DNA from: Streptomyces violaceusniger Tu 4113
GTDB lineage: Bacteria > Actinomycetota > Actinomycetes > Streptomycetales > Streptomycetaceae
Reading direction: 5' to 3'
Length of the DNA stretch: 64,000 nucleotides
NCBI RefSeq assembly: GCF_000147815.2
Contig: NC_015957.1
Span: 10,478,001-10,542,000 of the forward strand
The translations under genes and the position numbers were made by a program. Positions 37,380 through 56,100 of the stretch are shown here, one piece after another; the first letter of the stretch is position 1, and the number at the start of each line of letters is the position of its first letter. The notes under the pieces were generated by a model, which was not told where the DNA came from, did no database searches, and saw only the letters and a program-made list of their open reading frames with translations.

Positions 37380-37458
37380 CGGCAGCGGGGTGACGGCGAC
37401 GGGGACCGCGGCGGGACGCTCCGGTTCCCGCTGCTCGAGCCACAACAGGGCCGAACGA

Positions 37459-37495
37459 CCGAGGGCCCGGCACTGGAAAAGTGCCGGGCCCTCGG
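37459..37495. terminator. Strong bidirectional terminator
   Basis: A perfect 16-bp stem, CCGAGGGCCCGGCACT (37459-37474) with AGTGCCGGGCCCTCGG (37480-37495) and a GGAAA loop. It separates the lipoprotein gene from the convergent initiator tRNA. Confidence 0.85.
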
Positions 37496-37503
37496 TATCC
37501 GAG

Positions 37504-37577
37504 TAGCGGGGACAGGATTTGAACCTGCGACCTCTGGGTTATGAGCCCAGCGAGCTACCGAGCTGCTCCACCCCGCG
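37504..37577 (-). tRNA. Initiator tRNA-fMet(CAT)
   Basis: 74 nt. The anticodon arm TGGGCTCATAACCCA has the three consecutive G-C pairs of initiators, and position 1 (C) is unpaired with position 72 (T), also an initiator mark. Acceptor GCGGGG pairs with CCCCGC; T loop GGTTCAAATCC. No CCA is encoded. It marks the left border of the accessory region. Confidence 0.95.
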
Positions 37578-37609
37578 TCGATGAACGTAACTCTACGTCG
37601 TTCTCCCCG

Positions 37610-38846: not shown

Positions 38847-39629
38847 ATGATCGAGATCCTGAGCCCCACCGAACTGACCCGAGCAAAGGACACAGGCGCT
38901 CTGGTCGCCGACATCCTGCACACGCTGAAGGGCCGTAGCACGGTCGGCACCAACCTTCTGGACATCGATCGGTGGGCCAAGGCCATGATCGTCGAGGCGG
39001 GGGCGCTGTCCTGTTACGTCGACTACGAGCCGTCCTTCGGACGCGGCCCGTTCGGCCACTACATCTGCACCGCCGTCAACGACGCCGTGCTCCACGGGCG
39101 GCCGTCCGACTACGCGCTTGCCGACGGCGACCTGCTGACACTCGACCTCGCCGTCTCCAAGGCCGGAGTCGCCGCAGACGCCGCCATCAGCTTCATCGTG
39201 GGCGACGCCAAGCCCCCGGAGAGCGTCGCGATGATCAACGCGACCGAACGCGCACTGGCCGCGGGGATCGCCGCCGCCGGGCCCGGGGCTCGCATCGGCG
39301 ACATCTCCCATGCCATCGGCACGGTCCTCAGCGAGGCGGGCTACCCGATCAACACCGAGTTCGGAGGCCATGGCATCGGATCGACGATGCACCAGGACCC
39401 GCACGTGTCGAACACCGGACGGCCCGGCCGCGGTTACAAGCTGCGCCCTGGGCTGCTGCTGGCGCTGGAGCCGTGGGTCATGGCCGACACCGCCCAGCTC
39501 GTCACCGATGCCGACGGCTGGACCCTCCGCAGCGCGACAGGCTGCCGGACGGCGCACAGCGAGCACACGATCGCCATCACCGACGACGGAGCCGAAATCC
39601 TCACCCTGCCCCAGCAGATGCGGCCATGA
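38847..39629 (+). CDS. map: Type I methionine aminopeptidase (accessory copy)
   Basis: 260 residues. The five metal ligands appear in order: DGDLLTLDLAV (Asp), KAGVAADAAIS (Asp), FGGHGIGSTMHQDPHV (His), LALEPWVM (Glu) and AHSEHTIAI (Glu). The enzyme removes N-terminal Met in the cytosol. Its divergent XRE regulator and a companion gene overlapping its stop (ATGA) suggest a regulated accessory copy, not the housekeeping enzyme. Confidence 0.93.
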   Translation: MIEILSPTELTRAKDTGALVADILHTLKGRSTVGTNLLDIDRWAKAMIVEAGALSCYVDYEPSFGRGPFGHYICTAVNDAVLHGRPSDYALADGDLLTLDLAVSKAGVAADAAISFIVGDAKPPESVAMINATERALAAGIAAAGPGARIGDISHAIGTVLSEAGYPINTEFGGHGIGSTMHQDPHVSNTGRPGRGYKLRPGLLLALEPWVMADTAQLVTDADGWTLRSATGCRTAHSEHTIAITDDGAEILTLPQQMRP

Positions 39630-40037
39630 GTGACGCGTTATATGTGAGGTTTCAGGGGACCGTCCGAAGCCCGCGAGGCCATTTCCCCGGTGTCTTCGCA
39701 CTGGCCAACGGCCTCGCGCGGGCAGGCCAACTGAGTGATGAGGAATTATCGATTCTGGCGAGCGGGCAACGACTGGTTCAACGCCAACTTCGCCAGCCCC
39801 TCCGAGGTCGATCCCTCGGTCTACGACCCCGAACACAACCCAGGAGCCGTGGCATGGTTCAAAGCCACCGCCCCGGAACTGATCGCCCGGGTGGACGGCT
39901 ACCTGAGGATCCTCGCCCTGCATGAAGTCGCCTGCGAGCGAATCGAATCATCGAACCCAGGAAAGATCATCTACGAGGACCCGAACCAGGTAGTCGTCAC
40001 TCCCTGGGCTCACGACGGCGCAGCACCGCTGGAGTGA
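39626..40037 (+). pseudogene. Conserved companion of map, frameshifted; paralogue of gene at 47150
   Basis: The start overlaps the map stop by 4 bases: MSDALYVRFQGTVRSPRGHF, then FALANGLARAGQLSDEE. After GAGGAA at about 39741-39745 one extra T shifts the frame; the next frame continues YRFWRAGNDWFNANFASPSE to PWAHDGAAPLE at 40037. The joined ~136 residues align end to end with the intact protein at 47150-47611 (ALYVRFQSTVRNRRGHFTG, FRRANNDWYNAAYPDPSSVD, and RVDGYLEILAAHGIAC). The single base may be a real mutation or an assembly error. Function unknown. Confidence 0.65.
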
Positions 40038-41659: not shown

Positions 41660-42226
41660 ATGGCAATCACCAGCTACCTCCTGCACGGGCCGCGAGTGGC
41701 CTTACGCCACGTCCGCTGTCAGGACTACGACGAACTCACAGCGCTGGCCCAAGAAAGCGCCGAGATGCTCCGCCCCTGGCTAGGCGCCCGCGATCACACG
41801 CCGGAAGCTTTCGAGAGCTACCTTGAGCGGATCGAGCAGCCCACCCACGAAGGCTTTGTGATCTGTCTGAACGGCACAGGTGCGATCGTGGGCGGCATCA
41901 ACATCAACAACATCGTCAGGGGCACCCTCCAGAGCGGGACCGTGGGCTATACCGCCTACGCGTCCACCACCGGCCGTGGCTATATGACCGAAGGACTGAG
42001 ACTCGTGCTTCAGCTCGCCTTCGGTCAGCTGGCACTGCACAGGCTGGAGGCGAACATCCAGCCTGACAACACCTCCTCGCTGAACCTCATCAAGCGCCTG
42101 GGGTTCCAGCGCGAGGGCTACTCGACAGCCTTCCAGTTCATCAACGGCGAGTGGAGAGACCACGAGCGCTGGGCCATCACTGCCGAGATGCAACGGCGGT
42201 CCGGCTCCGACCCAAACACTTCTTGA
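41660..42226 (+). CDS. GNAT acetyltransferase (RimJ/RimL type)
   Basis: 188 residues. VALRHVRCQDYDELTALAQE opens the fold; the acetyl-CoA loop region is TGRGYMTEGLRLVLQLAFGQ; LHRLEANIQPDNTSSLNLIK and KRLGFQREGYSTAFQFINGE complete the RimJ/L pattern. It likely acetylates a protein N-terminus or small amine. It ends 63 bases before the IS-derived composite. Confidence 0.9.
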   Translation: MAITSYLLHGPRVALRHVRCQDYDELTALAQESAEMLRPWLGARDHTPEAFESYLERIEQPTHEGFVICLNGTGAIVGGININNIVRGTLQSGTVGYTAYASTTGRGYMTEGLRLVLQLAFGQLALHRLEANIQPDNTSSLNLIKRLGFQREGYSTAFQFINGEWRDHERWAITAEMQRRSGSDPNTS

Positions 42227-42391
42227 TCCGTAGATCGTCCAAGCAACGCCGCCCAGGTCCACGTCCCGACCTCACGGCGACATCTCTTAGACGATGTCCT
42301 ATGTGGTGAGTCGAACGAGTCGTTTGTAGCAGCAGAGGGCTGCATCGAGTCGTGATCAATTTGCTGGATTCGCCCTCGCTGCGAAGGTGGA

Positions 42392-45301: not shown

Positions 45302-45345
45302 CCCGCCAGGTGCCGCAGGCGACGACCACCGTCACTGGACAACGC

Positions 45346-45379
45346 AAGAGGCCCCATCCATCTCTGGAAGGGGCCTCTT
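45346..45379. terminator. Bidirectional hairpin terminator
   Basis: AAGAGGCCCC (45346-45355) pairs with GGGGCCTCTT (45370-45379), between the hypothetical gene and the convergent lipoprotein gene. Confidence 0.75.
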
Positions 45380-46689: not shown

Positions 46690-46870
46690 TCGCGGTCGCC
46701 CACACCGCACTCGATCCCATGCCCGAACTGAGGTCGTTGAGCCGGGGGTACGCCTCCTACAGGAAGACAGCGGCGTACACCAGTACGTCCATCCGCTCAC
46801 GGGCCTCGGACAGCATGTCCACAAGCGCGGACACCGGGATATCGGCCCGCTGCTCGATGTCAACGCATAC
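46690..46870 (-). pseudogene. Remnant of XRE-type regulator (DUF5919-like region)
   Basis: The minus strand reads VDIEQRADIPVSALVDMLSE, ARERMDVLVYAAVFL, a TAG, then EAYPRLNDL, matching the central part of Streptomyces XRE regulators that pair with this NUDIX type. A GHGIE fragment follows in another frame. The helix-turn-helix end is missing, and the fragment stops 4 bases before the tRNA-type terminator at 46874. It is truncated, with a nonsense codon and a deletion. Confidence 0.55.
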
Positions 46871-46873
46871 GCC

Positions 46874-46904
46874 AGAGGCCCTTCCGGTGATCGGAAGGGC
46901 CTCT
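46874..46904. terminator. tRNA-Arg terminator copy at left element end
   Basis: AGAGGCCCTTCCG (46874-46886) pairs with CGGAAGGGCCTCT (46892-46904). It is homologous to the terminator at 51565-51600 that follows intact tRNA-Arg(ACG). Confidence 0.8.
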
Positions 46905-46907
46905 GAG

Positions 46908-46955
46908 CTGGTGCGCGCTCGGCAGGATTCGAACCTGCAACCTCTTGATCCGTAG
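46908..46955. repeat. attL-like 48-bp copy of tRNA-Arg(ACG) 3' end
   Basis: Identical over 48 bases to 51601-51648, covering the T arm, variable region and the 3' side of the anticodon stem-loop through the anticodon. The 5' half of the tRNA is absent here. Confidence 0.9.
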
Positions 46956-47149
46956 GTTCGGGCGGGGGGCTGGTGGGGGCCTCGGCGGTCCTCTGACATG
47001 GTGTTCGACGCGCGCCGTTGGCGGACGTTGTGTGCCACCGTTGATGTCAGCGCTGATGTCACCATCCGCTGTCAGATCCGCCATCCATCGGCATAGCTCC
47101 TACGCTGTCCGTGGGACACGCGGTCAGCCGGAGCCTTAGCATCTTCGCT

Positions 47150-47611
47150 GTGAAGATCAGCGAAGCAGGATGGCTTGCGAACGAAGCGCTATACGTACGC
47201 TTCCAGAGCACAGTCCGAAATAGGCGCGGACACTTCACAGGCGTGTTTGGACTGGTCAATGGGCTAGCGCGGGACGGGAAGCTGACCGCTGAGCAGGAGC
47301 GCTTCAGACGGGCTAACAATGACTGGTACAACGCGGCCTATCCTGACCCCTCCTCCGTCGATCCGGGGGTCTACGACCGTGAGCTTCACCCCGGGGCGGC
47401 GGCCTGGTTCAAGTCCACGTCGCAGGACCTGATCAAGCGAGTAGACGGCTACCTGGAGATCCTTGCTGCTCACGGGATCGCGTGCTGCATGATGCGATCG
47501 TCAGATCCAGGGAGGATCGTCTACGAGGACGAGTATCAAATCGTCGTCGTTCCACACGAGGTCGGACCGGGCCAACCGAGTCCGGCGACCATACGCGGCG
47601 GGGATGAGTAG
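47150..47611 (+). CDS. Conserved hypothetical, paralogue of map companion
   Basis: 153 residues from a GTG at 47150; the frame is open back to 47111 and neither start has a good ribosome site. Conserved blocks: ALYVRFQSTVRNRRGHFTG, FGLVNGLARDGKLTAEQERF, NNDWYNAAYPDPSSVDPGVY and DLIKRVDGYLEILAAHGIAC. It aligns across its length with the frameshifted gene after map at 39626. No domain is known to me. It is soluble, and reads into the island from its left end. Confidence 0.7.
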   Translation: MKISEAGWLANEALYVRFQSTVRNRRGHFTGVFGLVNGLARDGKLTAEQERFRRANNDWYNAAYPDPSSVDPGVYDRELHPGAAAWFKSTSQDLIKRVDGYLEILAAHGIACCMMRSSDPGRIVYEDEYQIVVVPHEVGPGQPSPATIRGGDE

Positions 47612-47641
47612 CGAGCGTGCGGCTCGTAGCCCCCGGTCCGG

Positions 47642-48535
47642 CTACTGATCTGCAAACGCCTGCTCTGCCATGAGGCGCACGTATAGACCATGCGGCTGCA
47701 CACCAACCAGCCGGAACCCACTGGGGACCAGCTCCGGCCCCACCGCGCTCGCTGTGATCGGCCTCGATGACGGCGGAGTCCTCGGCACGTCAATGATCAG
47801 GCGGTCAACAGCATCGGCAAGCAACTGGGCCACTTCGTTTGCGCTGCCCTCAATCAGCACCGAACGTGCGCCTGCATCGGCCAAGGTGCCCAGAGCCTTG
47901 CCGGGGACGTCTCCGAGCGGTCCGCTAGGCGTACGGAAAACCTCTGTCCCATGGCCTCCTGGCGCGCCTTCCTCGATCGCCCCGGTCCGTCGGATCACAA
48001 GATCGTGTGTGCGGCGTAGCTCGGCAATGCCCGCGCCGTCCTCGTCAAAGCCATCTGCACCGACGGTGTACGCCCAGGTGATGTGTGGCCTTCCCGTACG
48101 CAGTGAGTGCAGCCACGGGCCGAGAACGAGCAGCGCTTCCTGCTCCAGGACACCGCGCTCTACCTCGATGCCGGCCTGTTCCAGGACCGCCGCACCACCC
48201 TCTCCGCGTGAGGTGGGGTCCATGACGGCCATCAGGACGCGGGACACCTTGGCATCGATCAGTGCCTGTCGGCATGGCGGGGTCCGGCCGTGGTGGTTGC
48301 AGGGCTCCAGGGTCACGACCGCCGTGCCGCCCTCGGCCCGCTCCCCCGCTGCGGTGAGTGCGTTCACCTCGGCGTGGTGGTCGCCCTTGCGGAGGTGGTA
48401 TCCCTCGCCGACCGGTACGCCGTCGCGGTCGAGGATCACGCACCCGACGGGCGGGTTGGGGCTCGTCGTCCCGAGGCCCTGGGCAGAGATGGCGATTGCT
48501 CGCCGCATGGCCGTCAGTTCGTTCGACGTGGCCAT
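47642..48535 (-). CDS. RibD-like deaminase/reductase protein
   Basis: 297 residues. The deaminase domain has H-A-E in KGDHHAEVNALTAAGERAEG and the zinc motif PCNHHGRTPPC, as in RibD. The C-terminal reductase-like half (TWAYTVGADGFDEDGAGIAE, SVLIEGSANEVAQLLADAVD) is degenerate relative to riboflavin RibG: the usual K-x-A-x-S-x-D-G segment is WAYTVGADG. It starts one base into the stop of the XRE gene (TGATG), so the two are coupled. A specialised pyrimidine or purine-analogue role is more likely than riboflavin supply. Confidence 0.85.
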   Translation of the reverse strand: MATSNELTAMRRAIAISAQGLGTTSPNPPVGCVILDRDGVPVGEGYHLRKGDHHAEVNALTAAGERAEGGTAVVTLEPCNHHGRTPPCRQALIDAKVSRVLMAVMDPTSRGEGGAAVLEQAGIEVERGVLEQEALLVLGPWLHSLRTGRPHITWAYTVGADGFDEDGAGIAELRRTHDLVIRRTGAIEEGAPGGHGTEVFRTPSGPLGDVPGKALGTLADAGARSVLIEGSANEVAQLLADAVDRLIIDVPRTPPSSRPITASAVGPELVPSGFRLVGVQPHGLYVRLMAEQAFADQ

Positions 48536-50082
48536 CAGAACCCCGCATTCTCCTTGACTGCGTCGAGTAGGTCCCGCACAGCGTGAACATTACTCGCCGC
48601 CGCGAGAGCGTTGACCGCCGTCACTGCCTCTTGCAGAGTGCGGCCGGAACCGGAGCCGCGGGCCATGTCGAGAACGACTGCGGCCTCGGCGGCGGCCTGC
48701 TCGTACTCCTGGATTCCCACGTAGGCCATAGCGAGCCGCGCCTGGGCGAATCCTCGGTCACGCTGGTAGACGTCCGGGAGTTCGGCCAGCGCGGTCTGGA
48801 AGGTGGAGACTGCCAGGTCCGGTCGGGACAGGTTGAGCCAGCAATTCGCGCGCTGGATTTCGATGTAGCTGGACGTGCAGAAATCCCCGTGGCCGGATCG
48901 GGCGTCACCGGAGGATTCGGCGATGGCGGCGAACTCGTGGGCCTCGTCCAGCTTTCGGAGACAGGCGACCTCGTCCCCGTCGAGGGCAAGCCCCTGCGCT
49001 TCCTGCTGAATGGCGGCGGCCTTCATCGGGTGTGTGAGTGCTCGTTCGTGGCGCTGCACAGCCTGCGCGAGTCCGATCGCCTGGCCTGCGTTCTTCTTCC
49101 CGGCCGCAAGCTGGCTGCGACGGAACAGGGTCCACGAGAGCATGGCTTCGTCTCCGGCCTCCATGGCCCATTCCATGGCCCGGCTCGTCCAGGTCTCCGC
49201 GCTGGACACGTCCATGGAGTCCTCGTGGAGCCACGCGGCGGACTCGGCGTACTGGGCCGAGAGCCTCAGCAGCTCTTGCCGGTGCTCGCCCCTGCTGTCC
49301 TCCAGAAGACCTTGCAACATGTCGAGCTGCTGATGGACTCCCGCGAGGGCGTGACGCGGGCCGAAAAGGTTGTCGGCCCTGACCAGCGTGTGCCACATGT
49401 CGCGGAAGTGCTCGATCGCTGCTTCGCCTCGTCCGGCGGCGAGTCGGTGTGGTCTGGCGGGCTTGGGACGCACGATCTCAGCGGAAGCGTTCACGGCGCG
49501 GAGGGGCCCGCTTCCTTGCAGGGCGACACCAATTGCGTGCCCGAGAAGGGCCCGGCGATTTATCGGCACGATCTGCTCCCTTCCATCGACGTACACCGAA
49601 ACCAGAACGATTTCGGGTAGCGCATCCGCGTCCGCCGAATTCGAGGGGTCCACGTGCACAATCGGCAGACCAGAGATCGCCCCCGTTGCAGGTAAGGGTG
49701 TGGGGTCGTTCGAGCCGTCTGGACTACTGCGAGCGTAAGCCTGGTCCTGGGCAGCGGCGCCCGGTGACGGGGTACCCTCCCACGGCCGCTCGGGCAGGTC
49801 GAGCATGTGGCCGGGAATGCCCAGTCCATCAGCGATGCGTTCCATGACGGCGACGCTGCGAATGCCTCGATCACCTCGGATCACGTCGCCGACGCGCGCG
49901 CTGGTCATCTTGGTGACGGCAGCGGCGATTGCCGCGTAGCTCGCTGGGGCTCGTCTGTTGACGAGTCGGAAGATCTCCCCGAAGTTCCTTCGTCTGCACG
50001 CCCGTTTCATGTCCTCGCTGTTGAGCAAGCGGGCCGGGATGGTGAGGGGGTATCCGCTGCGCCTGGCTTCACGTTCACTCAT
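48535..50082 (-). CDS. XRE regulator with large TPR-like C-terminal domain
   Basis: 515 residues from the ATG at 50082. The N-terminal helix-turn-helix is FRLVNRRAPASYAAIAAAVT, then RGIRSVAVMERIADGLGIPG; a Pro/Ser linker and then ~300 helical residues with repeated ALxxA units (AMEWAMEAGDEAMLSWTLFR; DLAVSTFQTALAELPDVYQR; RLAMAYVGIQEYEQAAAEAA) resemble TPRs. Such regulators sense peptides or small ligands through the TPR region. The promoter carries two perfect GGGGTACCCC palindromes, and a near-copy sits inside the gene. It drives the RibD-like gene. Confidence 0.85.
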   Translation of the reverse strand: MSEREARRSGYPLTIPARLLNSEDMKRACRRRNFGEIFRLVNRRAPASYAAIAAAVTKMTSARVGDVIRGDRGIRSVAVMERIADGLGIPGHMLDLPERPWEGTPSPGAAAQDQAYARSSPDGSNDPTPLPATGAISGLPIVHVDPSNSADADALPEIVLVSVYVDGREQIVPINRRALLGHAIGVALQGSGPLRAVNASAEIVRPKPARPHRLAAGRGEAAIEHFRDMWHTLVRADNLFGPRHALAGVHQQLDMLQGLLEDSRGEHRQELLRLSAQYAESAAWLHEDSMDVSSAETWTSRAMEWAMEAGDEAMLSWTLFRRSQLAAGKKNAGQAIGLAQAVQRHERALTHPMKAAAIQQEAQGLALDGDEVACLRKLDEAHEFAAIAESSGDARSGHGDFCTSSYIEIQRANCWLNLSRPDLAVSTFQTALAELPDVYQRDRGFAQARLAMAYVGIQEYEQAAAEAAVVLDMARGSGSGRTLQEAVTAVNALAAASNVHAVRDLLDAVKENAGF

Positions 50083-50141
50083 CGGCCGCTCACGAGGTGT
50101 AGGGACATGCGTCACATTTAGCGTAGATCGCGCCGAGTGTT

Positions 50142-50173
50142 GGGGTACCCCATTGCACTGCCTGGGGTACCCC
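50142..50173. promoter_or_regulatory. Two perfect operators for the XRE regulator
   Basis: GGGGTACCCC at 50142-50151 and 50164-50173, spaced 22 bases centre to centre (two helical turns), in the 135-base divergent gap between the XRE and ATPase genes. A one-mismatch copy, GGGGTACCCT, lies at 49769-49778 inside the XRE gene. Confidence 0.8.
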
Positions 50174-50217
50174 GTTGGCTGTCCCGGTGAGGGCGGCTCA
50201 CCTGCACTCTTGTGGCC

Positions 50218-50679
50218 ATGAGGCCAGAGCTGACAGGCCCTGAAGGACGAGTGGTGGTAAGGCGTTGGACCCGCCACCCCCGTTGTGTCGCCCTGGCCCG
50301 AGCCGACTTGCGTAAGGCTCTGGCTGGTTGGGGGCTGATCGCGGTCGAAGAGGTCGCGCTGTTGGTGCTGTCCGAATTGATAACGAACGCCGTACGTCAT
50401 GCACGGGTGCCGGGGCGCCAGATCGAGACGCGCTATCTGCACCAGGGCGACAAGGTGCGGCTCGAGGTTCACGACGCGGCCGACCAGCTACCCAAACTGA
50501 GGACTCCCACCCCCGAATCCGTACGCGGCCGAGGGCTGGTCCTGGTCGAATCGCTCGCCGATCACTGGGGCGTGACCCCACGGGCAGCCGTGGGCAAGGC
50601 GGTCTGGGCCGTCCTCACACTTCCTGTCGACGAACGGGCCTCACTGGCCGGTGAAGAGCGTAGAGAGGGGCACTCGTGA
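50218..50679 (+). CDS. Anti-sigma-like ATPase-fold protein (HATPase_c)
   Basis: 153 residues from the ATG at 50218 (GTG at 50212 is the alternative). VEEVALLVLSELITNAVRHA is the N-box; VRLEVHDAADQLPKL the G1 box (Asp present); ESVRGRGLVLVESLADHWGV the G2 box. It is the small single-domain type that Streptomyces uses in SpoIIAB/RsbW-like switches, though most are orphans. No ribosome site is evident. It overlaps the next gene by 4 bases (GTGA). Confidence 0.88.
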   Translation: MRPELTGPEGRVVVRRWTRHPRCVALARADLRKALAGWGLIAVEEVALLVLSELITNAVRHARVPGRQIETRYLHQGDKVRLEVHDAADQLPKLRTPTPESVRGRGLVLVESLADHWGVTPRAAVGKAVWAVLTLPVDERASLAGEERREGHS

Positions 50680-50966
50680 CGGCCGCCGGAAACTCCGTCA
50701 TACGGCAGGGCGATTGGACCCTGAGCGCAGACGTCACAGGAAGCCCGCCGATCTTGGAGGCCGAATGCACGACGTGCGACGACTCATCCGGCGCCGCTGA
50801 GGAGGCCAAGCAGCCGGAGGTGTGGTGTCTGCGTCACGCGAACCAGACGGGCCACACGGGATTCCGAATGATCATCACGAGCTTCTTCCGCGCGTCCATG
50901 GCGAGCGTGGGCTCGTCCGAGACGGCTGCGCGAGGCCGACGCCGTACGGCGATGCCTGACGCGTAG
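50676..50966 (+). CDS. Small CxxC protein coupled to the ATPase (DUF7848-like)
   Basis: 96 residues. VIRQGDWTLSADVTGSPPIL, EAECTTCDDSSGAAEEAKQP and EVWCLRHANQTGHTGFRMII give a CxxC plus a later Cys and two His, a plausible zinc site. I recognise this as a small Streptomyces family that follows such ATPases, possibly catalogued as DUF7848. Its GTG overlaps the ATPase stop, so they are translated together. Confidence 0.7.
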   Translation: MTAAGNSVIRQGDWTLSADVTGSPPILEAECTTCDDSSGAAEEAKQPEVWCLRHANQTGHTGFRMIITSFFRASMASVGSSETAARGRRRTAMPDA

Positions 50967-51088
50967 CCCCTCAACAACTTCAAGCAGGCGGGGAGCGGTG
51001 GTCGTCAGGCCCCCTTCTCTGCACCTCCTGGCCCTCTTTGAGTATGGGTACTCAGGTGCTCGAGAACTGTGCTGTGCATGGTGAAGCC

Positions 51089-51487
51089 ATGTTGAGCAGC
51101 AGGTTATGCCGCTGGTTAAAGGGGATCGTCGTCTCGGCAACCGCCGCCCATGGGACGTACTGGGTGTGGGAATCCGCCGAGCAGTGGGAGTCGGAAGCGC
51201 GACATGCCAACCCGGACGGGGGCATCGGCACAGGGTTTATCGAAGGGGCTCTGGCCACATTCGCCTGGTTGACGCTGGTGCCGTTGCTGCTGTGGTCAGG
51301 GATGCGGCTGCTGCGGGAGCGCGACAATCAGCTGCTGGTGACCATGGGATCGGCGGCGTGGATCATTCTCGGGACTCAGATGACCGAGGGCGGCGTCAGC
51401 AGGGTGGAAACGGAACTGTTCCTTCTCGCGTTCACTCTGCTAGGCGGCTTCCTGGCGCTGTTCCGCCCCACCGCACCAGAAGAGTGA
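51089..51487 (+). CDS. Hypothetical membrane protein at right end of element
   Basis: 132 residues from the ATG at 51089; the frame opens further to 51038, so the start is uncertain. Three hydrophobic stretches: ALATFAWLTLVPLLLWSGMR near 60, LLVTMGSAAWIILGTQ near 90 and LFLLAFTLLGGFLALF near 115. No family recognised. Confidence 0.55.
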   Translation: MLSSRLCRWLKGIVVSATAAHGTYWVWESAEQWESEARHANPDGGIGTGFIEGALATFAWLTLVPLLLWSGMRLLRERDNQLLVTMGSAAWIILGTQMTEGGVSRVETELFLLAFTLLGGFLALFRPTAPEE

Positions 51488-51564
51488 CCGCCCAGCGGCC
51501 GGCTCACCGGCCCTGCCCCGAGCGTCTCCCGGCGGTTCATGTCAGAGCTGATGTCATCCACACG

Positions 51565-51600
51565 CCAGAGGCCCCTTCCATGATGGGAAGGGGCCTCTGG
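51565..51600 (-). terminator. Terminator of tRNA-Arg(ACG)
   Basis: CCAGAGGCCCCTTCC (51565-51579) pairs perfectly with GGAAGGGGCCTCTGG (51586-51600). It adjoins the 3' end of the tRNA and is homologous to the copy at 46874. Confidence 0.85.
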
Positions 51601-51648
51601 CTGGTGCGCGCTCGGCAGGATTCGAACCTGCAACCTCTTGATCCGTAG
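51601..51648. repeat. attR-like 48-bp repeat within tRNA-Arg(ACG)
   Basis: Right-hand copy of the 48-bp direct repeat (see 46908-46955). It forms the 3' part of the intact tRNA. Confidence 0.9.
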
Positions 51649-51679
51649 TCAAGTGCTCTATCCGTTAAGCTACGAGCGC
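51607..51679 (-). tRNA. tRNA-Arg(ACG)
   Basis: 73 nt. Acceptor GCGCTCG pairs with CGAGCGC; the anticodon stem CTTGA/TCAAG encloses CTACGGA (anticodon ACG, the TadA substrate); T loop GGTTCGAATCC; discriminator G. No CCA encoded. It is the integration site of the 4.7-kb element. The 428 bases from here to the next tRNA show no gene. Confidence 0.95.
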
Positions 51680-52067
51680 TTGGCTTCCCGGCGGTTTTTC
51701 TTGCCGGTCGGCGTTGCGGGGACAACATTACATGACCTCTGCCGCCAGGCGAAATCCGTTTCCCACACCCCTACTGACCTGCGAAAACTCCGTTTTCGGG
51801 GGCTACCGGAGCGGCCGTCGCGAGACATCGGGGAGCGGGCCTTCGCGTCGCGAGGCGCTTGGGCAGTGACGGCCGTCTTCACGGAGGGATACAAGGCAGT
51901 CGCTCTGCGTCGCCTCGGTGAGAGTCCGGGATTGGCAGGGTTATGGGGCCGCGGTCGTCCGGCGTCGCAGTCACGGTCACGGTCACCGTAGTGAGGGGAG
52001 CGTGGGCGGGCATCGGCGTGCCGGGTCGCTTCCGTGATCGTTTGCGGCGTCCCGCGGAAACGACACA
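51680..52067. other. Intergenic region with no recognised gene
   Basis: Short open frames exist but none has conserved-looking protein or a ribosome site. TAATGT on the minus strand (51725-51730) could be a -10 element for tRNA-Arg. A GGTCACGGTCACGGTCACC-like triple repeat lies near 51973-51990. Confidence 0.5.
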
Positions 52068-53104: not shown

Positions 53105-56100
53105 GTGAGCAGCAGGCCATCCCGAGGCGCTGCTCGCCTCGCAGCGATACTCGACGCCCTCCCGGACGCGCTGTTGCTCGTCAACTGCAACGGCACGATC
53201 GTCAACGCCAACCACATCGCGCTGGAGTCCTTCGAGGCTCCGGGCACCGCCCTGGTCGGCCGTGGTCTGCTCGATCTGCTCCCCTCCTTCGATCCCAATC
53301 GCATTCCCGGGTCGATGCGGCGCCCCGAGTCGGCGCCACGGGACGGCATCAAGCCGACCCGGATGATGGCCCGGCGCACCGACGGGGCGCAGATTCCCGT
53401 CGAGGTGACCAGCGCGAATCTGGAGGACGGGCGGACTCCTTACGCCGATCAGTACAGCTACACCGGCGATGAGCTGCTGATGCTCATCGTGCGTGACCTG
53501 ACCGGGACGCTCGACACCGAGACCGAACTCGCCCGTCAGCAGCGCCAGACCGAGATGATCCTGCGCGCGGCGGCGGAGGGCGTGGTCGGCGTGGACACCG
53601 AGGGCAAGGTGGTCCTCGTCAACCCGTCCGCCGCGCAGATCCTCGGCTACCGGGCCAGCGACATGGGCGGTCAGGAGCTTCACTCTCTTGTACACCACTC
53701 GCGCCCGGACGGTTCCCCGTTCCCGTACGAGGAATCGCCCCTCGCCGACTCCCTGCGCTCCGGCCGCAAGCACCGGGTGCGCGGCCAGATGCTGTGGGCG
53801 AAGGACGGGAGCGAGGTCCCGGTCGATCTGACCACCGCGCCCGTCCGCGACGGCGAGCAACTCGTGGGCGCGGTGATGACCTTCACCGACCGGCGTGCCG
53901 AGAAGGCCATGGCGGCCAAGCACGCCGAGGAGGTGGAGAGCCTCACCACCCAGCACACGGAGGAGGTCGAGCGCCTCACCACCCAGCACACGGAGAAGGT
54001 GGAGAGCCTCACCACCCAGCACGCCGAGGAGCTGGAGAACCTCACCGCCCAGCACACGAAGACCGTGGAGGAGCTGCGGACGCAGCTCGCCGAGGAGCGC
54101 GCGCGGTACACGGCACAACTGGAGTCCGTAACCGCCCGGAACAGCCAGCTTCTCGCCGTGCTGGACCAGTCGCTGCGCGGACCGCTGCTGCAGCTGCGCG
54201 GCGAGCTCGGCGTGCTCGCCGACGACCCGGCCGGGCAACTGTGGCCCGAGGCCAACCAGATCCTGCACCACCTCGCCGCCGGCTACACCCGGATGACCAC
54301 GCTCGTCGACAACGTCCTGAGTTACCAGCGGCTCGACGCGCACAGCGAGGAGCTGGCCCGCCGTACGGTCTCGATGGACGAGGTCGTATCGGCCAGTGTG
54401 GAGGGCGCGGTCGAGCTGATCGGCCCGGGGCGCGCGCAGTTCGCCGTGCACGCGCCGCCGATCGACGCCGAGGTGGACCCGGAGCGGCTGGCCCAGGCGC
54501 TCGCCCATCTGATCGCGGACGTGGCCGGGGTCGACTCCACCGGCAACACCGCCGCGGGCAGCTCGGCGAGCGACTCGACGATCGTGGTCGCGGCGGCGCA
54601 GCGCGGCGATGTCGTACGGATCGAGGTCCGCGGGCCGTACGCGGGCGGCGATCCGGTGCACGAGCCGATCGTGCGCGGGATCGTGCGCCGGCACGGGGGC
54701 GTGCTCCAGACCCATGAGATGCCGGGCATGGGCGGACACGCCTACGTCCTGGAGGTGCCGATCTCGGCGGCGGCCGCGGCCGAGCAGGAGCGCGCGGACG
54801 GCGACACCGCCGGGCAGGGCGACGGTACGCAGGGACAGGGCACCTCCGGCGCGGGCACCGACTCGGGTACGGGTGCGGGCACGGGCACCGTGGGCGGCAA
54901 CGCCACCGGCCAGACCCCGACCGGACGCCGCGCCCGACACGGCGCGGCCCCCGGCGGCACGCCAGGCGACACCAGCGGCGGCGGTACGCAGGGCAACGGC
55001 ACGCAAGGCAACGACGCACAGGGCGGTACGCCTCCGCCCAACCTCCGTAAGGCCGACCCGCAGACGGCCGACCCCCGTACGGCCGACCCGCGCACCGCCG
55101 CGCAGCAGGGCGCCCCGGGCGCGCCCGCCGCACTTCCCGCGGTCGTCGGCGAGGACACCGCGGCCCAGCAGCAGGGCGCGGCCGAGGCCGGGGACACTCC
55201 ACGCCCCACCGGGCGGCGCAGGGCGCGCCCCCACCCCGACGAGGCGGCGGCCGCGGCCGCCGGTCCGCAGCCGACGGGCGCCGCCGCCATGGGCGTTGTG
55301 CCGCCTCAGGGCATTCCGGCCCAGCAGCAGCCCCAGGGCCGCCGCGCCCGGCGCGGCGCCCCGGCGCAGGAGCAGGGCGGCCCTCAGGCTGCCGGTGCCC
55401 CCGCCCAGGGCACGGGCGGTCGGCCTGCCCTCGCTCTGCCCGCGGCCGCCTCCGACACGCCCCAGCGGCCCGCCCAGCCGGTCGCATCGGGCATGCCCGC
55501 GCTGCCCGCCGCCCGTACGTCCGAGGAGCAGCAGCCCAACTGGGGCCAGGACACCCGCGCAGGCCAGCCGGAAGAGGTCCCGCCCACCGGACGGCGCCGC
55601 GCCCGCCGCACGCTGGCCGAGGCGTCGGAGCTGCCGGCGCCCGACCAGGCGCAGCCCCAGGGCCAGGGCCAGCCCCAGGGCCAGGCCCAGGCGCAGCCCC
55701 AGGGCCAGGCGCAGCCCCAAGCTCAGCCGCAGCCGACGGGGGAGCCCGGTCTCGTCCGCTCTCCCTTCGCGCTGCCCCCGGCCGCCGCCGACCGGGCGCA
55801 GCCCGGCGCGCTGCCGCCGGAGCTCGGCCCGGCCGGGCTCGTACCGGCTCAGCACGGCGCCCGCGAGGCGCGGGGCGGCGCGCCTCAGCCGCAGCCGGGC
55901 GGGGGCCTGGCCGTACGAGGCGAGCCCGTACCCCCCAACGGCGCCGCACGGCCCGGGGGCTGGCCGTCCGACCCCGGTCAGGCGCGGGGCCAGGACCCGC
56001 GTCGGCCCCAGCCGCAGCCGCAGGCCCAGGGCTCCGGCGCCGCTCAGCCCGTCGGATCGGGCAGGCCCGCGCTGCCCGCCGCCCGTACGCCCGAGGAGCA

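Follow-up and report, generated by a model that had tools for sequence, protein, structure and literature searches.

An att-flanked unit without integrase at tRNA-Arg(ACG) of Streptomyces violaceusniger Tu 4113, a probable remnant of a pSAM2-type element in an accretion hotspot

The window analyzed here, a 64,000-nucleotide stretch of Streptomyces violaceusniger Tu 4113 (NC_015957.1, positions 10,478,001 to 10,542,000), contains a small repeat-bounded unit next to a tRNA-Arg(ACG) gene. The unit carries six cargo genes, including an overlapping gene pair for an NsdA-family regulator and a RibD-like protein, and has no detected recombinase. It probably derives from an actinomycete integrative and conjugative element (AICE) that decayed into a cis-mobilizable element (CIME). 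The unit and its parts are, in window coordinates:

46956..51648, no strand: unit nearest the tRNA, without recombinase, probably a decayed AICE or CIME; 4,693 bp core to core
51606..51679, minus strand: tRNA-Arg(ACG), intact, the integration target
51601..51648, plus strand: tRNA-side att core (3' half of tRNA-Arg)
46908..46955, plus strand: distal att core, 48 bp identical to the tRNA-side core
51567..51598, plus strand: terminator-like hairpin adjoining the tRNA-side att
46874..46904, plus strand: terminator-like hairpin adjoining the distal att
47043..47061, plus strand: distal arm-like pair GATGTCAGCGCTGATGTCA, starting 88 nt from the core end
51538..51556, plus strand: tRNA-side arm-like pair CATGTCAGAGCTGATGTCA
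47111..47611, plus strand: hypothetical protein of 166 aa when started at GTG, longer than most of the relatives listed and without a Pfam model
47642..48535, minus strand: RibD-like protein with an intact deaminase domain and a divergent C-terminal half
48535..50082, minus strand: NsdA-family TPR regulator, with a 1-base overlap with the RibD start
50212..50679, plus strand: HATPase_c_2 protein
50676..50966, plus strand: DUF7848 protein
51044..51487, plus strand: small protein by the tRNA-side att, a putative membrane protein by first-pass annotation; the likeliest start is ATG 51044, and scans ran from 51068, in frame

The att cores are part of a longer direct repeat (46866-46955 and 51559-51648; 90 nt, 87% identity). 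The final 48 nt are identical and span the tRNA-Arg gene from the anticodon loop to 5 nt beyond the tRNA 3' end. A 30-nt core with up to three mismatches occurs at two places in the 64 kb, with none expected from 100 shuffles. The two att-linked hairpins are alike but not identical, as read from the sequence. Each hairpin flanks its repeat at the lower coordinates, which is downstream with respect to the tRNA. A first-pass annotation had described identical 48-bp repeats at tRNA-Arg(ACG) with no integrase, which the repeat, tRNA, Pfam and backbone searches bear out, and a cargo of six genes, which stands as well. Its homologous terminators by each repeat are recovered as similar hairpins, with their position refined to downstream of the tRNA.

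The genes that would define an active element were not detected. Pfam revealed no integrase, Rep or FtsK-like family among the six unit proteins. Ten AICE backbone proteins (GntR, Tra, a DUF2637 protein, RepSA, Xis and five integrases) were also searched against all six frames of the window and gave no match at E 0.01; this search had no positive control, and the same RepSA query did detect RepSA in the loci L087 and L088 in a separate search. Of the FtsK/SpoIIIE transfer gene, Rep and Int/Xis that make up a functional AICE, the window thus yielded none. The unit retains its att cores, terminators and arm-like pairs at both ends. According to a review that defines CIMEs, such elements have lost their integration and transfer genes, keep attL and attR, and are stacked with other layers at the site (PMC5704250). 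The window unit is alike in its lost integration and transfer genes, its kept att sites (identical 48-bp cores and arm-like pairs) and its stacking, and cis mobilization is putative here.

The stacking becomes apparent when the locus is compared with an empty site. In Streptomyces L044, tRNA-Met and tRNA-Arg lie 37 nt apart, compared to 14 kb in the window. Window positions 37458-37580 correspond to L044 15129-15248 and positions 51605-51788 to L044 15286-15469, with a gap of 37 nt in L044. From these distances it follows that the 4.7-kb unit is the tRNA-nearest layer of an island. Similarly, L043 has a tRNA-Met-like stretch directly downstream of tRNA-Arg. The first-pass annotation had named empty sites and larger integrase-bearing relatives at tRNA-Arg(ACG) as a comparison to make, and both exist. 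The further features of the island are:

37503..37577, minus strand: tRNA-Met(CAT), which delimits the island on the side away from tRNA-Arg; the two tRNAs are 37 nt apart in L044
37578..51648, no strand: entire accretion island at tRNA-Arg(ACG), spanning about 14 kb, not in L044
46197..46673, minus strand: NUDIX gene, the next more distal layer
45342..45378, plus strand: terminator-like relic resembling the att-linked terminators, possibly marking an older att
42221..42233, plus strand: 13-nt match to the att core end, found by reading only, a weak candidate for an older att relic

The distal layers encode the NUDIX protein, a 189-aa hypothetical protein, DUF4096 (IS4/5-type transposase), FG-GAP, GNAT, HAD and HTH proteins, and an M24 methionyl aminopeptidase. 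A relative of the NUDIX gene sits between two att copies in S. antioxidans. At window positions 38847-40037, the type I methionyl aminopeptidase (M24) precedes another copy of the 166-aa family that spans two open reading frames. This succession belongs to an older island layer, and the same order is found in G194.

Relatives of the unit occur at the same hotspot in other genomes. A genome scan found seven close relatives of the regulator, all in Streptomyces and 83-95% identical, and a search across the genus added two more (G194 and G125). The RibD-NsdA module lies at the tRNA-Arg hotspot in nine related Streptomyces. In six of the nine (S. iranensis, S465, S. rugosispiralis, S. antioxidans, S. 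samsunensis and G194), it is located between tRNA-Met and tRNA-Arg. In G125 and in S. sabulosicollis, which is listed within the S. violaceusniger group, the module is accompanied by tRNA-Met and att cores, with tRNA-Arg beyond the stretch. In NBS 14/10, the module is on the tRNA-Arg contig and tRNA-Met on another contig. In G194 the regulator gene is interrupted by a stop, and in G125 a deletion has broken it. Ten of the genomes compared at the tRNA-Arg locus were chosen for showing a second att match, and the set gives no frequency estimate.

The units around this module differ in how much of the AICE backbone they retain. The S. samsunensis unit encodes GntR, FtsK/SpoIIIE, DUF2637, RepSA (E=2e-158), HTH_17 (Xis-like) and Phage_integrase proteins. 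S. sabulosicollis has genes of near-equal length in the same order (families not scanned), and its integrase runs off the stretch. The integrase is split in two frames in S. rugosispiralis, and short integrase remnants are found in S465 and G194. Searches with phmmer on stop-to-stop reading frames of at least 60 aa recovered no integrase in the module units of the window, S. iranensis (first unit), S. antioxidans and G125 (second unit), nor in that of NBS 14/10 as far as the contig reaches. In NBS 14/10, the small protein gene stands just before a 146-aa minus-strand gene at the position of the backbone GntR (family not scanned), a layout that fits a deletion from the GntR position to the integrase. 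In S. iranensis, two integrase-bearing units lie between the integrase-less unit and the tRNA, as expected of accretion. Such a range, from a backbone AICE to a split integrase, an integrase remnant and no integrase, amounts to a decay series at a single tRNA, with the cargo pair conserved throughout.

The ends of the unit carry a further, more specific signal. The pair GATGTCANNGCTGATGTCA lies inside each unit end; it occurs twice in the window, and none of 100 shuffles reaches two. With up to one mismatch, these are the only two places in the 11.1-Mb genome. Two further matches of the GATGTCANNGCTGATGTCA type with two mismatches exist in the genome; one of them has an integrase of a different type some 2 kb away (C3 8627054 and 8629113). 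The core-to-pair spacing of 88 nt is common to related units carrying GATGTCA, GCCGTCA or GCTGTCA pairs, with an S. iranensis unit carrying GTCACTCA as the exception within the group. Of other Streptomyces, L036 likewise has 88 nt, while L032 and L037 have the pair about 20 nt more distant. The same heptamer class was present near both ends in 19 of 23 units with exact cores, where one heptamer within a set stretch sufficed for assignment and no shuffled control was run. The four units without matching classes are those of G194 and L033 and the first units of G125 and L031. Variant cores were omitted from the count (e.g., S. antioxidans 7969, S. rugosispiralis 10231, NBS 14/10 10148 and L039).

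Tyrosine integrases act through arm sites, and the arm-like pairs may by their position be binding sites of the integrase. Integrase-bearing elements at tRNA-Arg(ACG) carry pairs of the same sort. Their integrases are 82-87% identical within the GATGTCA class (L032, L036 and L037), 87-91% within the GCTGTAC class (L031, L034 and L040) and 74-96% within the pooled GCCGTCA and GCTGTCA classes, compared to 39-51% between arm-class groups. The L036 and S. sabulosicollis integrases have no core within 400 nt, and their arm class was taken from a separate comparison; the second S. iranensis integrase (GTCACKCA class) was too distant for the identity table. These sequence comparisons suggest that the arm heptamer class follows the integrase subfamily, the core being common. 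Such a rule could explain how distant AICE integrases use one tRNA. A bolder extension would be that several integrase subfamilies share one att core at tRNA-Arg(ACG) of Streptomyces and tell their own elements by the heptamer (GATGTCA, GCCGTCA, GCTGTCA, GCTGTAC or GTCACKCA). Integrase-less cassettes would then form an arm-addressed satellite pool, picked up by an AICE of the same code and left by those of other codes. We consider this extension improbable, though the arm rule, if true, would allow sequence-based prediction of which relics remain movable.

The same evidence bears on whether the distal repeat has any integration history. tRNA fragments can duplicate, and this general fact is the one point in favor of the distal repeat being a mere duplicated fragment. 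The empty site in L044, the bounding of integrase-bearing elements in other genomes by the same core, and the recurrent spacing of the arm-like pairs all argue against a duplication, which we regard as scarcely credible.

We suggest that the unit is, with high probability, the decayed remainder of a pSAM2-type AICE, preserved as a CIME in an accretion hotspot. An ancestral tyrosine integrase would have recombined an attP with the tRNA-gene core. The segment separating the small protein gene from the tRNA-side arms may later have been deleted, leaving an att-flanked piece of cargo. The unit would now be mostly static, with pieces swapped by recombination between related units. Renewed movement would require action on its ends by an incoming element that shares its arm class or by an AICE inserted in tandem at this tRNA. 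Of the two origins proposed by the first-pass annotation, a trimmed integrative element is well supported by the AICE in S. samsunensis, the split integrase in S. rugosispiralis and the lack of a detected integrase here, and a satellite that borrows a helper integrase is the less likely.

Accretion and decay of AICEs at tRNA-Arg genes of Streptomyces are already known, and the window unit adds a further case with a few new details. Tandem AICEs were mentioned in a tRNA-Arg of S. avermitilis (Ghinet et al. 2011, PMC3218068). Like the pSAM2-type AICEs of that study, the S. samsunensis relative has GntR, FtsK-like, RepSA, Xis-like and integrase genes by the tRNA, whereas none were found in the window unit. 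The accessible portion of Choufa et al. 2022 (PMC9513070) reports one to three AICEs or defective AICEs and a traB-less remnant, lying between identical direct repeats at a Streptomyces tRNA-Arg, and integrases 39-88% identical that use one site. Decay there proceeds by loss of the integrase or replicase, cargo is kept with a truncated integrase, and cis mobilization is considered possible (PMC9513070). The window unit shares this accretion and decay at tRNA-Arg, in other strains and elements and possibly at another anticodon. It differs in its arm-like sites and RibD-NsdA cargo, neither of which is described in that portion (PMC9513070). Neither RibD-NsdA as mobile cargo nor a link between arm class and integrase subfamily appeared among the literature matches listed, in a search that left subscription journals mostly outside and included no pSAM2 attP paper. 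Beyond the first-pass annotation, the analysis adds the position of the unit as an island layer, the arm-like pairs following the integrase subfamily, and the decay series of the RibD-NsdA module.

Several observations weigh against the reading as a decayed AICE. None of the genomes compared contains this very unit with an integrase of its own arm class. GATGTCA is found at both ends of four units in the group, all without integrase. The module does occur within the S. samsunensis AICE, but that element has another arm class than the window unit. The stretches with GATGTCA elements in G023, G024 and G030 contain no RibD relative and no NsdA, save a 90-bit match in another G030 unit. An integrase-bearing ancestor is deduced from elements of the group with other arms, together with the GATGTCA elements of G023, G024 and G030. 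Synonymous divergence (dS; Nei-Gojobori on tblastn-aligned codons, with stop and gapped codons dropped and no confidence limits) is also uneven, and simple vertical inheritance fails in part. To the closest relative, G194, NsdA has a dS of 0.211 compared to 0.074 for core genes, and to NBS 14/10 the values are 0.683 and 0.432. The HATPase gene has a dS of 0.397 to both S465 and S. samsunensis, with core genes at about 0.2. For RibD residues 200-297, the dS is 1.08-1.42 to every relative apart from a second copy in NBS 14/10 that is broken at its N terminus (0.079; core 0.432). The 166-aa gene has a dS of 0.206 to the same NBS 14/10 stretch, again compared to 0.432 for the core.

From this unevenness across genes we conclude that the unit is a mosaic and that its GATGTCA-armed distal end has passed between lineages, whether through movement or through homologous recombination. 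The regulator itself diverged largely like the core. Core dS between the window and its relatives is 0.167-0.209, except for G194 (0.074) and NBS 14/10 (0.432), and NsdA dS is 0.185-0.248, except for NBS 14/10 (0.683). The ratio is 1.0-1.2 in five of the seven pairs with both values and higher in G194 and NBS 14/10; the core set here differs slightly from that of the dN/dS analysis, and the NsdA table lacks G125. The ratio of nonsynonymous to synonymous divergence (dN/dS) of NsdA is 0.09-0.16 against eight of the nine relatives and 0.24 for the broken G125 copy (core genes with identity <=0.7, dS >=1.2 or coverage <=0.6 were excluded). As judged from these ratios, NsdA is under purifying selection. 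The diverged RibD segment (window 47645-47938, residues 200-297) adjoins a regulator with a dS of about 0.2, placing a recombination boundary within the gene.

An exchanged distal end would also fit a true satellite, i.e., an integrase-less unit selected for movement in trans by integrases of AICEs of the same arm class. Both arm-like pairs and both cores are intact in the window. The layout of core, GATGTCA pair, variable segment, RibD-NsdA/HATPase, GATGTCA and core recurs without integrase in the window, S. iranensis, G125 and S. antioxidans, and GATGTCA-class integrases occur at tRNA-Arg(ACG) in other Streptomyces. The distal end (166-aa gene and RibD residues 200-297) is nearer to the GATGTCA-armed NBS 14/10 copy than the core is. 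However, the tRNA-side pair in S. iranensis, G125 and S. antioxidans is down to one heptamer of two, which speaks for decay. In comparisons with S. iranensis and S. antioxidans, the NsdA dS (0.185 and 0.191) is close to the core values (0.181 and 0.197), fitting inheritance of NsdA.

A helper integrase was also looked for. The GATGTCA-class integrase of G023 was used as a query against 12 genomes, with S. sabulosicollis outside the set, and close relatives (82-100% identity) were found just in G023, G024 and G030. A matching-subfamily integrase was found in none of the nine group genomes, i.e., the own genome and eight related ones; the best match was 51% identical and of another arm class, and the own genome gave a partial match of 34%. 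Because these nine genomes lack a matching integrase, the window unit is probably immobile at present. On balance, the helper-borrowing proposal seems unlikely given the missing helper and the core-like divergence of NsdA, although the exchanged distal end shows that parts of the unit do move or recombine across lineages. The own genome contains 19 Phage_integrase places, 17 of them above the cut-off. None was retained as a helper candidate, as none is near the hotspot integrases (best about 86 bits, compared to about 940-950 for self).

The cargo of this probable AICE remnant most likely serves regulatory functions in host metabolism or development, as judged from the families of the overlapping NsdA-family regulator and RibD-like deaminase and of the divergent HATPase/DUF7848 genes. 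The regulator scores 166.3 bits against the NsdA family NF053720 (cut-off 75), with a weak HTH_31 match below the Pfam cut-off. The earlier label of an XRE/TPR protein is refined to an NsdA-family regulator. In S. rimosus, an NsdA protein represses rimocidin production (PMC12243394). The window protein also scores above the family cut-off and may share such a function by family, but it is encoded on an integrated element and its gene overlaps a RibD-like gene. The deaminase half of the RibD-like protein matches PF00383 (62.5 bits) and TIGR00326 (181 bits, residues 10-163), and no RibD_C Pfam match was found in the reductase half at E 0.01. The structural model of the protein (mean pLDDT 88) resembles RibD structures along its length, with a TMq of 0.73 for the best match. 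A full-length RibD is encoded elsewhere in the genome (375 bits). The model of the 166-aa hypothetical protein (mean pLDDT 81) had no PDB match at E 0.001. A signaling or regulatory module is plausible from the NsdA and HATPase_c_2 families.

The first-pass annotation had also considered the cargo as an anti-phage defense cassette. A deaminase, an ATPase and a TPR regulator do occur jointly on the mobile unit. None of the six proteins matches PADLOC at E 0.01, leaving that claim without support. In addition, the RibD-NsdA pair is carried by five large Streptomyces plasmids, with no defense gene annotated in the two stretches inspected, and we consider a defense role very unlikely. No relatives of the regulator were found in 50,697 phage records, which is neutral for the defense reading. 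In the plasmids L151 and L152, the pair adjoins genes for a 2'-5' RNA ligase family protein, an aldo/keto reductase and an ATP-binding protein.

NsdA was detected in 45 of 295 genomes at E 1e-30, distant paralogs included. Fourteen more distant NsdA loci (L081-L094, five with RibD; several on short contigs) showed no tRNA or att core. RepSA was found just in L087 and L088 among them, where NsdA, HATPase and DUF7848 occur together with RepSA and without RibD. Outside the island, ARAGORN called a tRNA-Ala(CGC) at 55824-55902; it lies within a large PAS-type open reading frame, the Rfam search reached position 54000, and the call is probably false. Across chromosomes and plasmids, the combination of the regulator with a RibD-type enzyme appears as a recurrent theme. 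The own genome has another NsdA-like gene (C3:8542026-8542895), which adjoins a match to the RibD reductase half (C3:8541283-8541933, just below the cut-off). The NsdA-RibD pairing thus recurs in the same genome with the other half of RibD.

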